DNA of 35,037 nt from an uncultured Clostridia bacterium (lineage in GTDB: Bacteria > Bacillota_I > Bacilli_A > RF39 > UBA660), in NCBI GenBank assembly GCA_947165135.1, contig CAMUZE010000014.1:1-35037 (forward strand), given 5' to 3'. Positions 5,743 through 16,073 of the stretch are shown piece after piece. The position numbers were made by a program, and so were the translations under genes. The notes under the pieces were generated by a model. That model made no database searches and was not told the origin of the DNA. It worked only from the letters and a program-made list of their open reading frames with translations. The stretch's first letter is position 1. Each line of letters begins with the position of its first letter.

Positions 5743-6156
5743 CTACCTACATTCGTTTATTTTTACTAACAAATTATACATTTCTTCATTTCTTGTTTGT
5801 TTATAAAAGAAAACAACACATCCAATGGCTTTAAAAGTCTTTAGTGGTTCACAATAAAAACCACTATCTATATACTCATTTTCTACTATTTCTAAATGCG
5901 ATGATCTCATACCACCAAAGTGTTTATCATCTACTATTTCCTTTAATTTACTTGATATATTACAATTTAGATATTTTATTACTCTCTTACCATATGCATA
6001 AACTATCTTATCAGTATTGGTAACAATACATTCAATATAATTATCATTCATATATAATTCAATATTATTTATTGATTCATTATTTTCTATATTGTCTAAT
6101 CCTTTTCTAAATATATTCATAAATATTTTTACATCTTTTTTAGTTAGTTTTTTCAT
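5743..6156 (-). CDS. Uncharacterised 137-aa protein
   Basis: The start is taken at MKKLTKKDVK (site AGAGG, 8 bases before). I recognise no family. The protein is soluble, with basic helices at the N-terminus, an LYMNDNYIECIV strand-like region, and a C-terminal GCVVFFYKQTRNEEMYNLL. It is encoded divergently from the tandem-XRE regulator at 6269. A TATAAT on the minus strand (6193-6188) would serve it. No signal peptide or TM segment is seen. Its place beside a MobV relaxase block suggests an accessory gene of a mobile element. Confidence 0.65.
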   Translation of the reverse strand: MKKLTKKDVKIFMNIFRKGLDNIENNESINNIELYMNDNYIECIVTNTDKIVYAYGKRVIKYLNCNISSKLKEIVDDKHFGGMRSSHLEIVENEYIDSGFYCEPLKTFKAIGCVVFFYKQTRNEEMYNLLVKINECR

Positions 6157-6268
6157 ATCAATACCTCTTTCAAATATAATCTTAAACATTATATCACTTT
6201 TTCAACGAATAATCTTCGGTTTTCTAGTTAAAACTAATTTTAATGGGACAATGGTATCGGTGATAGTT

Positions 6269-6718
6269 ATGTTTGATAATAATTTACGATATGCTAGAGA
6301 AGAATTAGAAATGACACAAGCTGAACTAGGTTATGTTTTCGGTGTATCTGATTCAGCAGTTAGATCATGGGAAACTGCTCATGATTCTATACCTTTACCT
6401 AAACTAATTAAATTTTGTGATATGTATGATTTCTCATTAGATTTTATTTGTGGTTTAATTAGAAAGAATATAAAGTATGGTCATTTTAAAACAGATAAGG
6501 TTAAAATTAGTAAGAAATTAAAAGAATTAAGAAAGAGTTTAAATATATCTCAACAAAAGTTATCTGATGATTGTAAAATATCTCAAACAACATATAGTGG
6601 TTATGAAACAGGTCATTATCTAATTAATACAACTAATCTTTATTATATTTGTAAAACTTATGATGTTTCTATGGATTGGATTGTTGGAAGAACTAATAAT
6701 AAAAAAATAGGCAAATAA
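6269..6718 (+). CDS. Tandem XRE (double HTH) regulator
   Basis: A 149-aa DNA-binding protein made of two Cro/CI helix-turn-helix domains in a row. The first is about residues 4-60 (MTQAELGYVFGVSDSAVRSWE); the second is about 78-135 (ISQQKLSDDCKISQTTYSGYE). There is little else in the protein. The start at MFDNNLRY is preferred because the HTH begins there and a GGTGAT site lies just before; the longer open frame upstream has no domain. The gene is convergent with the relaxase gene and divergent from the 137-aa gene. Two HTH domains in one short chain could bind an operator as a monomer. It is probably the regulator of the mobilization block (inference). Confidence 0.85.
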   Translation: MFDNNLRYAREELEMTQAELGYVFGVSDSAVRSWETAHDSIPLPKLIKFCDMYDFSLDFICGLIRKNIKYGHFKTDKVKISKKLKELRKSLNISQQKLSDDCKISQTTYSGYETGHYLINTTNLYYICKTYDVSMDWIVGRTNNKKIGK

Positions 6719-6760: not shown

Positions 6761-8044
6761 CTATCTACACATATCATAATCATCTTTATCTAATTCATAT
6801 GGTTTTTTAACTCTTTCTTTTAGGTAATCTGGAGCTCCTACATAATCAAATAATTCATCTTGTTTAGTAGTTCCTTTTGAAATACCAACTACATCAGATA
6901 ATTCAAATTCTTCTTCATCATAACAGTTTTTAACTGTATTAGAAGCTTCATCTTTAGTATAATCATTACCTCGTTGTAATAGTTTTCTTAAGAACTTCTT
7001 TAACAGATTAAATAGATAATTTATTCTATATAATAAATTTCTATTTTCTTCTTTTAATTCTTTATTCTCGTTTTCTAGTTTTTCAACTTCCTTTTTATAT
7101 TTTTTTGATTCTTCTTGTAATGAGGTATAACTTCTATTAAAACTATCTACTTTATTAAAAGCAGATTCTAATTTAGGTTGTACTTGTAATACTTCTTTTG
7201 TTTCATTAATTACTTCTTTTATATTCTTAAAAGTTTCTCTTTTTATTTTTACATGATCTTTATCTAATAACAAGTCTTTATTACTTTTCATATTATCTTC
7301 TAGTTTTAATAATGAATTATCTAATCTTTCATGTTTAATACTTAAATCCTTATTTAACATTCTAGTCATTCTTTTAAGTTCGTTAACAGGAATATATTCT
7401 CTTCCAAATTTACTTTCTCCACGAAGGAGATCATATCCATTTTTGGTCATTCTCTCATGATACTTATCTTGTAGTTGAGATAAATGCATTTTATCGTGTA
7501 TATAAGTCTTTTTAGATATTGTATATCTTTCTTCTTTACTTCTTTTATCAAATCTTTTAATAAGTGGAACAACAACTACATGTAAGTGTGGTGTTGTTTC
7601 ATCCATATGGATAATTGAACTAATAATTTGATTTTTATTATATCCTAAATCTTCATAAACAAAATTCATACAATGTTCTCCCCATTTTTTTATTTCTCTT
7701 CTAGACATATCATTAAAGAAATTATGAGAAGCTGTTAAGATTAATTCATCAGCTACTACATTTTTACCTTCATTAACCATTCTTGAAAAGCTTCTTTTTC
7801 TATCTGGTCTTTCAGTTTTCATTCTTTCATCCCATTCATCTTTATATGGTTTAGTAATTTCATAAAACTTTTCTACATAAGTTTTATCACATGGAACTAA
7901 TTCTATATTTTCATGTGATCTAGTTGTATCTATATCTGGATTAGATAAATACTTTTCTTTTTCTCTTTTATCATGAGAACCAATACCTGATAAAGCATTA
8001 GTAGTCATTATTGGTTTACTTCTAAATATTGCATAATTATTCAT
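6761..8044 (-). CDS. MobV-family relaxase (Mob/Pre)
   Basis: Relaxases of this family nick the origin of transfer and lead the strand into a recipient cell. The 427-aa protein starts at MNNYAIFRSK (site GGGAG). It has the family's N-terminal region with SGIGSHDKREKEKY, and the diagnostic HMDETTPHLH metal-binding motif at residues about 146-155 (the HxDExxPHxH pattern of MobV). A long C-terminal coiled coil runs over about 215-355. The length matches Mob/Pre proteins. The upstream gene encodes a zinc-ribbon protein and a terminator lies between them. No integrase or replication gene is seen nearby; transfer probably depends on a helper element (inference). Confidence 0.9.
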   Translation of the reverse strand: MNNYAIFRSKPIMTTNALSGIGSHDKREKEKYLSNPDIDTTRSHENIELVPCDKTYVEKFYEITKPYKDEWDERMKTERPDRKRSFSRMVNEGKNVVADELILTASHNFFNDMSRREIKKWGEHCMNFVYEDLGYNKNQIISSIIHMDETTPHLHVVVVPLIKRFDKRSKEERYTISKKTYIHDKMHLSQLQDKYHERMTKNGYDLLRGESKFGREYIPVNELKRMTRMLNKDLSIKHERLDNSLLKLEDNMKSNKDLLLDKDHVKIKRETFKNIKEVINETKEVLQVQPKLESAFNKVDSFNRSYTSLQEESKKYKKEVEKLENENKELKEENRNLLYRINYLFNLLKKFLRKLLQRGNDYTKDEASNTVKNCYDEEEFELSDVVGISKGTTKQDELFDYVGAPDYLKERVKKPYELDKDDYDMCR

Positions 8045-8072
8045 AATATCACTCTCCCTTTTAAATAAATGC

Positions 8073-8104
8073 ACAAAAAAAAGAGATGCCTTTTCAAGCA
8101 TCTT
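8073..8104 (-). terminator. Terminator between zinc-ribbon and relaxase genes
   Basis: Stem AGATGC/GCATCT is followed by eight T's on the minus strand. It sits just upstream of the relaxase start and could also attenuate relaxase expression. Confidence 0.75.
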
Positions 8105-9772: not shown

Positions 9773-11299
9773 CTACTTATTTTCTATTCTACTAAATAGT
9801 ATTTGTGATTCATTAAGAACTATATTATTCTCTAAGTTTCCAAATTCTAATGTATCAAAAGATGTATTCTTTGTGTTTAACATATTAAATATCTTTTGAG
9901 ATGTATCTGGCATAAACGGTTGTAATAATATTGCACTAATTCTTATACTCTCAAGTAAATTATATAAAACTGTTTTTAATCTATCTTTTTGTTTTTCGTC
10001 TTTAGCAAGTACCCATGGACATGTATCATCAATATATTTGTTACTTCTTCTTAATAATTCAAATATATCTTCAAGAGCATCACTAATTCTTAAATTATCC
10101 ATTTTTTCATCTACTAATTTTGGAAGTATTTTAGCATAAGTAATTAAACTATCATCTACGCTTTCGTATACATTTGGATTTTCAACTTTGCTTTCGAAAT
10201 ACTTTTTACTCATTGCAAGAGTTCTATTAACTAAATTTCCTAATACATTTGCAAGATCAGAATTGAATCTTTCTTCTAATAATTCAATTGTAATATTTCC
10301 ATCATTAGCAAAAGGTGTTTCATGAAGCACATAATATCTAACAGCATCTACTCCATATTTTTCAGCTAAATCATCTGCATATATAGCGTTTCCCCTACTT
10401 TTTCCAATCTTATCATTATTTGAAAGTAACCAAGGATGACCAAATATCTTATGTGGAAGTTCTAAGTCTAAACTCCATAAAAATGCTGGCCAATATATAC
10501 TGTGGAATCTTACTATATCCTTTCCTATTAGATGTAAGTCTGCTGGCCAATATTTATTAAACATATCACTAGGATTCTCTGTATCGTAACCAATATTAGT
10601 AATATAGTTTGTAAGAGCATCAAGCCATACATATATAACATGTTTATCATTAAATGGAACTTTAATTCCCCACGTAAATGATGTACGAGAAACACATAAA
10701 TCTTGAAGCCCTGGCTTAATAAAATTATTAATCATTTCATTTTTACGAGAAGCTGGTTCTAAAAATCCATTATTATCTTCTAATAACTTTTGAAGTCTAT
10801 CTTGGTATTTAGATAATTTAAAGAAATATGCTTCTTCTTTTTTTAATTTTACTTCTCGTCCACAATCAGGACATTTTCCATCAACTAGTTGTGATTCTGT
10901 CCAAAATGCTTCACAGTCAGTGCAATAAAGCCCACTATATTCTCCTAAGTAGATATCTCCTTTATCATACATTTTTTGAAATATTTTTTGAACTTCTTTT
11001 TCATGCATTTCATCTGTTGTTCTTATGAATTTATCATAACTAATATTCATTACATCCCAAATTCTTTTTACTTCTCCTGCAATTTCATCAACAAATTCTT
11101 TAGGTGTTTTTCCTTGATCTTTTGCTTTTAATTCTATCTTCTCGCCATGTTCATCAGTACCGGTTTGAAAATAAACATCATATCCTTTTAATCTTTTATA
11201 TCTTGCAATTGAATCAGCCAAAATAATCTCATAAGTATTTCCTATATGAGGTTTACCTGATGTATATGCTATTGCTGTACTTATATAATATTTTTCCAT
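9773..11299 (-). CDS. metG: Methionyl-tRNA synthetase
   Basis: Class I aminoacyl-tRNA synthetase charging tRNA-Met in the cytoplasm. The 508-aa protein starts at MEKYYIS behind AAGGAGG. It carries the HIGH-type motif (KPHIGNTY), a zinc knuckle with two CxxC pairs (CTDC and CPDC, about residues 127-146), the KMSKS-type motif as KIGKS, and a helical anticodon-binding domain. It ends there and lacks the C-terminal tRNA-binding extension found in longer enzymes. Expression is controlled by the methionine T-box in its leader. Confidence 0.95.
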   Translation of the reverse strand: MEKYYISTAIAYTSGKPHIGNTYEIILADSIARYKRLKGYDVYFQTGTDEHGEKIELKAKDQGKTPKEFVDEIAGEVKRIWDVMNISYDKFIRTTDEMHEKEVQKIFQKMYDKGDIYLGEYSGLYCTDCEAFWTESQLVDGKCPDCGREVKLKKEEAYFFKLSKYQDRLQKLLEDNNGFLEPASRKNEMINNFIKPGLQDLCVSRTSFTWGIKVPFNDKHVIYVWLDALTNYITNIGYDTENPSDMFNKYWPADLHLIGKDIVRFHSIYWPAFLWSLDLELPHKIFGHPWLLSNNDKIGKSRGNAIYADDLAEKYGVDAVRYYVLHETPFANDGNITIELLEERFNSDLANVLGNLVNRTLAMSKKYFESKVENPNVYESVDDSLITYAKILPKLVDEKMDNLRISDALEDIFELLRRSNKYIDDTCPWVLAKDEKQKDRLKTVLYNLLESIRISAILLQPFMPDTSQKIFNMLNTKNTSFDTLEFGNLENNIVLNESQILFSRIENK

Positions 11300-11314
11300 A
11301 ATATCCTCCTTAAA

Positions 11315-11505
11315 ATAAAAAGTCATAAATTAAGGACGAAATATTCCGCGGTACCACCTTAATTCATGACTTATCATGCTCTTGAAACTTTAACGCAGTT
11401 ATACGTTTTGACTCCAGAACCATTTTCAAGTACCACTCTATTAGTTTTCACCAACCACTAACTCTCTTTAAAAGCGATATCTCTCTCTTTCCTTCCTAAT
11501 CAATT
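11315..11505 (-). promoter_or_regulatory. Methionine T-box leader
   Basis: The leader carries the conserved T-box AAGGTGGTACCGCG (11360-11347). It pairs with uncharged tRNA to form the antiterminator. The competing terminator is a long stem (AGTCAT-AATTAAGG with CCTTAATT-ATGACT) followed by TTTTTATTTT at 11311-11325. A candidate specifier ATG lies at 11423-11421 in a GAAAATGG context, which fits the metG gene downstream. Uncharged tRNA-Met would favour read-through. Confidence 0.92.
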
Positions 11506-11553
11506 ACATACAGATTTTAACATAATTATATTTAAAAATCTAGTATATTTTTA

Positions 11554-13968: not shown

Positions 13969-13986
13969 TTGATTCCTCTTTATTTT
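13957..13986. terminator. Bidirectional terminator between DUF6512 gene and upp
   Basis: Stem AGAGGAAT (13959-13966) with ATTCCTCT (13972-13979), with A's before and TTATTTT after. Confidence 0.75.
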
Positions 13987-14606
13987 GTTCCGTACACTCT
14001 ATCTCCTGCATCTCCTAATCCAGGTAGTATATAGCCATGTTCATTTAAGCATCTATCAACATGGGCTGTATATATTTGAACATCAGGATGTGCTTTTTGA
14101 ATCTTTTTTATTCCAATCGGAGAAGCTATTACGCATAAAAATTTAATTTTCTTTACCCCATCTTTTTTTAATCTATCTATTGTTGCAATTGCACTTCCCC
14201 CTGTTGCTAACATAGGATCCAAAACAAGAACCTCTCTTTTTTTAATATTATCTGGCATTTTGTAATAATATTCAACTGGATTAAGTGTTTCTTCATTTCT
14301 ATATAATCCGATATGACCTATTTTAGCATTTGGAATTACTTTAATAATTCCGTCTACCATACTCATACCTGCTCTTAGAATTGGTACAAAAGCATAATCA
14401 TCTTCATTCATTGATTGTGTTTTATATTTTTCAAGAGGTGTTTCAATTACTGTGTTATGTAATTTAGCATCTTTTAATGCTTCATAACAAAGAAGTATTG
14501 CTATTTCACCAACTAGTTCTCTAAATTTTTTAGTTCCTGTATTTTTATCTCTTAATATAGATAATTTATGTGTTATTAAAGGATGATTTAATACTATCTC
14601 TTTCAT
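13980..14606 (-). CDS. upp: Uracil phosphoribosyltransferase
   Basis: Converts uracil and PRPP to UMP, the key step of uracil salvage. At 208 aa it has the usual length. It has the PRPP-binding loop [10 protein letters not shown] (about residues 129-138), a typical RAGMSM segment, and the uracil-binding end [18 protein letters not shown]. Its start overlaps the stop of uraA by one base (TAATG), so the two are translated as a unit. Transporter plus enzyme make a complete uracil-uptake route. Confidence 0.97.
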
Positions 14607-15886
14607 TATTTTTCCTCTGGTATAAATAGATTTAATAAAATTCCTATGATTGCTGCTAAAGACATACCAGATATTGATACAGATACGTTCTTAGTTATTA
14701 TTGATATAGCAGCTCCTCCTAAACCTAATACTAACATTGAAGATGCTACTATTACATTTTTAGTATTACTAAAATCTACTTTGTTTTGAATTAATATCTT
14801 TAATCCGTTTACTGAAATAAATCCATATAGTAGGATTGCAACTCCACCTAATACTGGAGATGGAATTGATGATATAACTGCAGTTAATTGCCCTAAGAAA
14901 CCAAATATTATTGCTATTATTGCTGCTAGACCTGTTACCCAAACAGATGCAACTTTCGTCATACCAACTACTGATGTATTTTCACCATATGTTGTATTTG
15001 CAGGTCCTCCAATTAAACCAGCTGCGAATGTCGCAACACCATCACCAAGTAATGTTTTATCAAGTCCAGGATCTTCAATTAAATCTTTATCTATGATTGA
15101 TCCTAATACTTTATGATCTCCTATATGTTCTGAAATAGTTACAAGTGCAATTGGCACTATTGTAAGAAGTGCTCCAAAATTTAATTTATAATGTACAAAT
15201 GGTAAATAGAATTTTGGAAGACTTAGTATTTTTGCACTAGTTATTCCACTATAATCTACTATTCCAAGAATCATAGATGCTATATAACCAGCTGTAATTC
15301 CCAATAAGAATGGAATTACTTTTAAGAATCCTTTTCCTCTTACTGCAAATATTGCTGTTGTTAAGAATGCAACTAATGCTACTACTATATTTTTCCAAGG
15401 TATGCTTACGGCATTTAATCCAATTTCCTCTACTGCAGTTGGAGCTAATGCAAGACCAATTATCATGATCATTGGTCCAACTATTATTGGTGGTAATAGT
15501 TTATTTAGCCATTTCTTTCCTGCTAGTTTGATTAATAAAGCAAATAGCATATATACAAGTCCTACTGCCATTATTGCAGTAAACACACTTCCTTTACCAC
15601 TCTTAGCAAATCCTACTGCCATTGGAGTAATAAAAGCAAATGAACTTCCTAAGTATACAGGACTCTTACCCTTAGTACATAATATATAAAGTAATGTACC
15701 TATTCCTGATGATACTAGTGCTACAGGTATTGATAACACTTCACTTCCTGCTGCCTTGTTAACAAGTATTGGTACTAAAATAGTTGCTCCGAACATTGCA
15801 AATACATGTTGAAGTGATAAGAATAACCATTTTAATACTGGTGGTTTGTCATTAACATCAAGTAACATTTTACTGTTTCTTTTCAT
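14606..15886 (-). CDS. uraA: Uracil permease (NCS2 family)
   Basis: A membrane transporter bringing uracil in with protons. The 426-aa protein starts at MKRNSKML behind AAAGGAGG. It has about 12-14 TM segments, the family start [17 protein letters not shown], and the NCS2 signature region [16 protein letters not shown] with SEHIGDHK before it. It is the first gene of uraA-upp. The leader upstream holds a terminator immediately preceded by a 25-codon open frame (15947-16024). That suggests attenuation in response to pyrimidine supply. Confidence 0.95.
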
Positions 15887-15917
15887 ATTCTCCTCCTTTA
15901 AAACAATAAACTTGAGC

Positions 15918-15946
15918 AAAAAAAATCTCACCAATAAATGATGAGA
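15918..15946 (-). terminator. Leader terminator (attenuator) of uraA-upp
   Basis: Seven-base-pair stem TCTCATC/GGTGAGA (15946-15940 with 15932-15926), loop of 7, then eight T's (15925-15918). It lies upstream of uraA and inside its leader, so it must be read through for expression. Confidence 0.85.
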
Positions 15947-16024
15947 CTAAATAACAAAGATACTAACAACATTAAGATTGTAATTTTTTGTTAAAACCAA
16001 TTTTTCTGTCATTAATATTTCCAT
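15947..16024 (-). CDS. Putative 25-aa leader peptide of uraA-upp
   Basis: The open frame starts with ATG at 16024 behind AGAGG (9 bases spacing). It encodes MEILMTEKLVLTKN and then YNLNVVSIFVI, and stops with TAG at 15949-15947. The stop touches the first base of the attenuator stem. The promoter (TTGCAT-17-TATTCT) would place the transcript start only a few bases before the ribosome site, so the leader RNA is little more than this reading frame and the terminator. The last third is T-rich, which could slow RNA polymerase when UTP is low. The layout resembles the E. coli pyrBI leader. No PyrR-binding loop was recognised. The mechanism is inferred. Confidence 0.55.
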   Translation of the reverse strand: MEILMTEKLVLTKNYNLNVVSIFVI

Positions 16025-16044
16025 ATCTTTTTTCCTCTTTTAAA

Positions 16045-16073
16045 AGAATAGCATATCTTTTTTATAAATGCAA
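16045..16073 (-). promoter_or_regulatory. Promoter of uraA-upp leader
   Basis: TTGCAT (16073-16068), 17-base spacer, TATTCT (16050-16045) with an extended TGC before the -10. Confidence 0.5.

Follow-up and report, generated by a model that had tools for sequence, protein, structure and literature searches.

What controls the uracil salvage genes in a genome in which no PyrR was found? The question is raised by a locus on the minus strand of the window (the whole stretch of DNA that was analysed, 35,037 nucleotides), where uraA and upp both lie downstream of a short leader ending in an intrinsic terminator. uraA (14606..15886, ATG at 15886) encodes an NCS2-family uracil permease. Its best NCBIfam match was PRK10720, uracil permease, below the equivalog cut-off, and TIGR00801 matched above its cut-off. 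upp (13980..14606) encodes uracil phosphoribosyltransferase (TIGR01091, above the NCBIfam cut-off) and overlaps uraA by one base.

The leader is compact. A sigma-70 type promoter, TTGCAT-17-TG.TATTCT, is predicted from the sequence at 16045..16073, with the -35 box TTGCAT at 16073-16068 and, after a spacer of 17 nt, an extended -10 element, TG-C-TATTCT, at 16050-16045. The predicted start of the leader RNA is at about 16038, and a Shine-Dalgarno sequence, AGAGG (16034..16038), sits at this predicted 5' end. The preliminary description had noted that almost no RNA precedes the leader frame, and this agrees with a 5'UTR of about 14 nt predicted from the promoter position. The frame (15947..16024, ATG at 16024) has 25 codons encoding MEILMTEKLVLTKNYNLNVVSIFVI and a U-rich 3' end. 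Its TAG stop codon (15949-15947) falls on the first bases of the stem of an intrinsic terminator, the putative attenuator (15924..15948). This stem-loop, identified by sequence and folding, reads AGTCTCATCA-TTTAT-TGGTGAGATT and has 10 pairs and a folding energy of -11.1 kcal/mol. A run of 8 T follows (15918..15925), the first two of which are also paired, forming the 3' end of the stem. The uraA Shine-Dalgarno sequence is at 15892..15899. Only 37 nt separate the stem from uraA, which is too small a gap for a second promoter, so expression of uraA should come by terminator readthrough alone.

Other features of the window were noted. A T-box leader (11329-11506, minus strand; Rfam RF00230, 102 bits) lies directly before a gene that by eye resembles methionyl-tRNA synthetase (9773-11326). 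A frame resembling by eye a plasmid mobilisation relaxase of the Mob/Pre type (6761-8101, minus strand) is accompanied by a helix-turn-helix-like frame (6092-6718, plus strand), and the two are possibly part of an integrated mobile element.

The preliminary description had read this leader as an attenuator of the pyrBI type, and our analysis supports that reading; dependence on UTP and coupling of ribosome to polymerase are what we infer from it. We put the probability that the uraA-upp leader is a translation-coupled transcription attenuator that senses UTP at roughly three in four, judging from the sequence features described here. Ribosome loading on the leader frame would follow emergence of the RNA almost at once. 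With ample UTP, polymerase would pass the U-rich end of the frame and outpace the ribosome, and the terminator would fold. When UTP is scarce, polymerase would slow in the U-rich stretch, allowing the ribosome to reach the stop codon on the stem. The ribosome's footprint at the stop would then block folding of the hairpin, and uraA-upp would be transcribed. We infer that the promoter is used, that the frame is translated, that UTP is the signal and that the ribosome occludes the stem.

Conservation of the layout was examined in relatives. uraA was carried by 10 of 18 genomes of the genus and 31 of 291 genomes of the family, and a further 80 uraA loci came from named MAGs labelled Erysipelotrichaceae, Tenericutes, Bacilli and Clostridia. 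In a set of 80 non-redundant uraA leaders, with the start codon picked by its Shine-Dalgarno sequence only, the frame was open to within 30 nt or less of the stem in 74, whereas dinucleotide shuffles predict 12.1. Only 1 and 19 of the 80 were open to the stem in the +1 and +2 frames, respectively, and 70 of the stop codons fell in the interval from 27 nt upstream of the stem to the end of the stem. By this count, the frame-to-stem layout exceeds chance. The order of parts was the same as in the window, with leader frames mostly of 24-47 codons. A promoter with a spacer of 17 or 18 nt was found in 66 of 70 relatives (17 nt in 63), the predicted 5'UTR was 10-20 nt, and the median gap from stem to uraA was 39 nt. 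Mollicutes that read TGA as Trp have the same layout. In both the window genome (16136-17638, plus strand) and G003, a family 2 glycosyltransferase gene lies divergent to the leader, and other members of the genus have different neighbours at this position. Since the upstream neighbours differ within the genus, conservation of the leader does not depend on what lies upstream.

The relatives' leaders were compared, as had been proposed, and only part of what was expected appeared. The frame, with its stop near the stem, is conserved, but synonymous-biased evolution was not seen in close pairs, for which the pooled pN/pS was 1.2. The peptide sequence is therefore not conserved, and leader peptides from different genera are dissimilar. 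What is conserved is the frame, the position of the stop and the base composition. A pN/pS of this size fits a leader in which translation matters and the peptide does not.

The base composition is distinctive. U content climbs from about 22% at roughly 75 nt before the stem to 65% beside it. The T-rich final codons seen earlier in the window proved to be a general feature: across leaders, the last 12 codons held 1313 U, compared to 1216 expected from the codon usage of each locus's own uraA (z 8.5, a value overstated, like the other z and p values here, by the shared ancestry of the relatives). Recurrence of the layout in several families softens this problem. The first 12 codons held less U than expected (z -2.9), and the zone that is U-rich beyond codon usage covers the last ~45 nt before the stem. 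The shift also reached synonymous positions of Val, Ile and Thr codons. C was not enriched, at 5% beside the stem and 5-13% in the stretch before it. As a control, 56 ordinary genes ending at terminators in the same loci showed no U bias (z -0.3), and U made up 31% of the last 36 nt of ordinary gene ends compared to 52% in leaders (p 8e-18). The U-rich stretch is thus specific to this leader.

How such a terminator behaves depends on coupling. In E. coli, the ribosome follows so closely that it almost completely suppresses a terminator located a few bp past a stop codon (PMC4824070), and termination is prevented only when coupling over pyrL is tight (PMC5021804). In the genomes studied here, ordinary genes also can end on stop-adjacent terminators. 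Elsewhere, such terminators have been read as evidence that polymerase runs ahead of the ribosome, which is predicted to happen in all Firmicutes (as reviewed in PMC10953045), and coupling therefore cannot be assumed here. The two sets of observations can be reconciled if the terminator is on by default, in an uncoupled state, and is turned off when a shortage of UTP allows the ribosome to close the gap. By extension from the E. coli work (PMC4824070), any shift in the relative speeds of ribosome and polymerase would move the terminator. The same anatomy could then serve as a general sensor of coupling, responding to ribosome or polymerase speed, the stringent response or antibiotic stress instead of UTP. 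We consider this unlikely, as the enrichment before the stem is specific to U, with C at 5-13%, and the pairing of the leader with uracil genes and the loss of PyrR point to UTP.

A different explanation is that a PyrR-like protein or an undescribed aptamer controls the terminator, with the frame being incidental. PyrR governs uraA leaders in many Firmicutes, and undescribed aptamers escape Rfam. However, the search for PyrR in the window's own genome, which had been suggested at the outset, found none, and among 80 leader-bearing genomes none exceeded the curated PyrR cut-off and one matched at E<=1e-20 (these absences, like that of pyrB, come from draft genomes). The preliminary description had seen no PyrR loop in the window leader, and Rfam and loop-pattern checks of it were negative as well. 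The loop pattern occurred in 1 of 116 leaders, and no Rfam family matched. Also, no sequence or hairpin was conserved between start and stem in relatives' leaders, yet the frame is. Control by PyrR or an aptamer is, on this evidence, very improbable.

In a contrast sample of other Bacilli with uraA, PyrR was found in 42 of 80 (E<=1e-20). The PyrR-loop pattern was present in 31 of 41 PyrR-positive uraA leaders. Two of these 41 were scored as having a leader frame, both of which also have the loop pattern, and the two scores are probably false. Among 41 loci scored as PyrR-negative, a leader frame with a terminator was scored in 15, five of them in genomes that read TGA as Trp; a few of the 15 (L174, L188 and L199) look weak by eye, the frame being very long, very short or the end of an upstream gene. 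The single PyrR loop in the PyrR-negative group was in G374, a genome left out of the PyrR search. These counts suggest that the leader-frame and PyrR-loop layouts are nearly mutually exclusive in the sampled genomes. In several PyrR-positive Bacilli (G457, G410, G451, G468, G504, G402, G558 and others), a pyrR-like gene adjoins uraA in divergent orientation.

A translated leader before a terminator also recalls trp-type attenuation, in which shortage of an amino acid stalls the ribosome at the corresponding codons and an antiterminator is formed. Codons for Phe, Ile, Leu and Val are abundant in the leaders, but no single codon recurs, and synonymous positions share in the U bias. In none of 70 leaders was upstream RNA found to pair with the 5' arm of the terminator, which argues against a switch of this type, and the downstream genes serve uracil salvage instead of amino acid metabolism. 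We therefore regard a trp-type mechanism as having very little chance of being correct. A hairpin like the one that aids pausing at pyrBI was present within the frame of some relatives without an excess over shuffles (mean z -0.3; 9 of 70 with p<=0.05), and that of the window was weak and worse than shuffles. The least credible alternative, an independent small-protein gene with an ordinary terminator and uraA expressed by leaky, unregulated readthrough, could draw on the stop-adjacent terminators of ordinary genes but is contradicted by the pN/pS of the leader, the dissimilar peptides, the lack of U bias at ordinary gene ends, and a layout that different families retain at uraA and that is missing where PyrR acts.

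Other pyrimidine genes were searched. Neither pyrB nor pyrE had a model match in the window genome, a 91% complete draft, and this genome therefore probably depends on uracil salvage. At pyrG, the same leader was not found in the genus, where pyrG lies directly behind another gene. At pyrB, inspection by eye showed it in 2 of roughly 20 loci and in none of the others. In these two (L126 and L133), as at uraA, a short frame bearing a Shine-Dalgarno sequence runs up to a terminator in front of pyrB; L133 comes from the same genome as L118, whose uraA has no leader. In five PyrR-negative Bacilli (L161, L163, L166, L172 and L187), uraA starts roughly 26-38 nt past a terminator. This terminator comes shortly after the stop of a longer upstream frame, and no promoter would fit in between. 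By analogy with rph-pyrE, this upstream frame may serve as the leader. In L034, an rpsR-like frame precedes uraA, and its stop abuts the terminator.

On balance, it seems probable that PyrR has given way to a UTP-sensing, ribosome-coupled attenuator at the uracil salvage genes of many PyrR-less Bacilli, including Mollicutes with TGA as Trp, and Clostridia, in convergence with enterobacterial pyrBI. If so, coupling would occur, at least conditionally, in lineages predicted to be uncoupled. Repressor-free control of pyrimidine genes would extend from enterobacteria to much of the Firmicutes and Mollicutes, and the regulation of uptake in PyrR-less uracil users would be explained. Transcription-translation coupling could also be followed with this leader as a natural reporter, both in lineages for which it has been doubted (B. 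subtilis) and in those for which tomography has shown it directly (Mycoplasma pneumoniae, PMC8116511).

The leader can be compared with several known systems. In the literature searched, which covered few subscription papers, no account of a leader frame at uraA was found. With the pyrBI leader (pyrL) of E. coli and Salmonella it shares a translated frame, a U-rich stretch before an intrinsic terminator, a short path from the RNA 5' end to ribosome loading, downstream pyrimidine genes and the lack of a repressor. It differs in its genes, uraA-upp, and in its hosts, Bacilli, Clostridia and Mollicutes, and no significant pause hairpin was found in it. Also, the stop of the frame is at or in the stem here, whereas the ~135-bp leader gene of pyrBI has the terminator within it (PMC4824070). 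The PyrR-controlled uraA/pyrP leaders of Bacillus and Lactococcus likewise place a terminator before a uracil permease gene and have the same output, but they use a PyrR-binding loop and an antiterminator where this leader has a translated frame. At the rph-pyrE attenuator of E. coli, the stop codon of the upstream frame lies near the terminator, as it does here. The rph-pyrE leader is a full gene, in contrast to the dedicated short frame found in most relatives. The nearest published relative in anatomy is uORFC-13-1, which precedes aroF in Acholeplasma, a wall-less relative of the Bacilli, and also combines a promoter, a ribosome-binding site, a short frame with a U run and an adjacent terminator (PMC8632094). 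It has 24 representatives, and its authors suggest Phe supply as the signal (PMC8632094); it stands before a different gene, with no link to uraA or UTP. What is apparently new here, judged by these comparisons, is a probable pyrBI-like mode of working on a different gene, in different phyla and apparently in place of PyrR.
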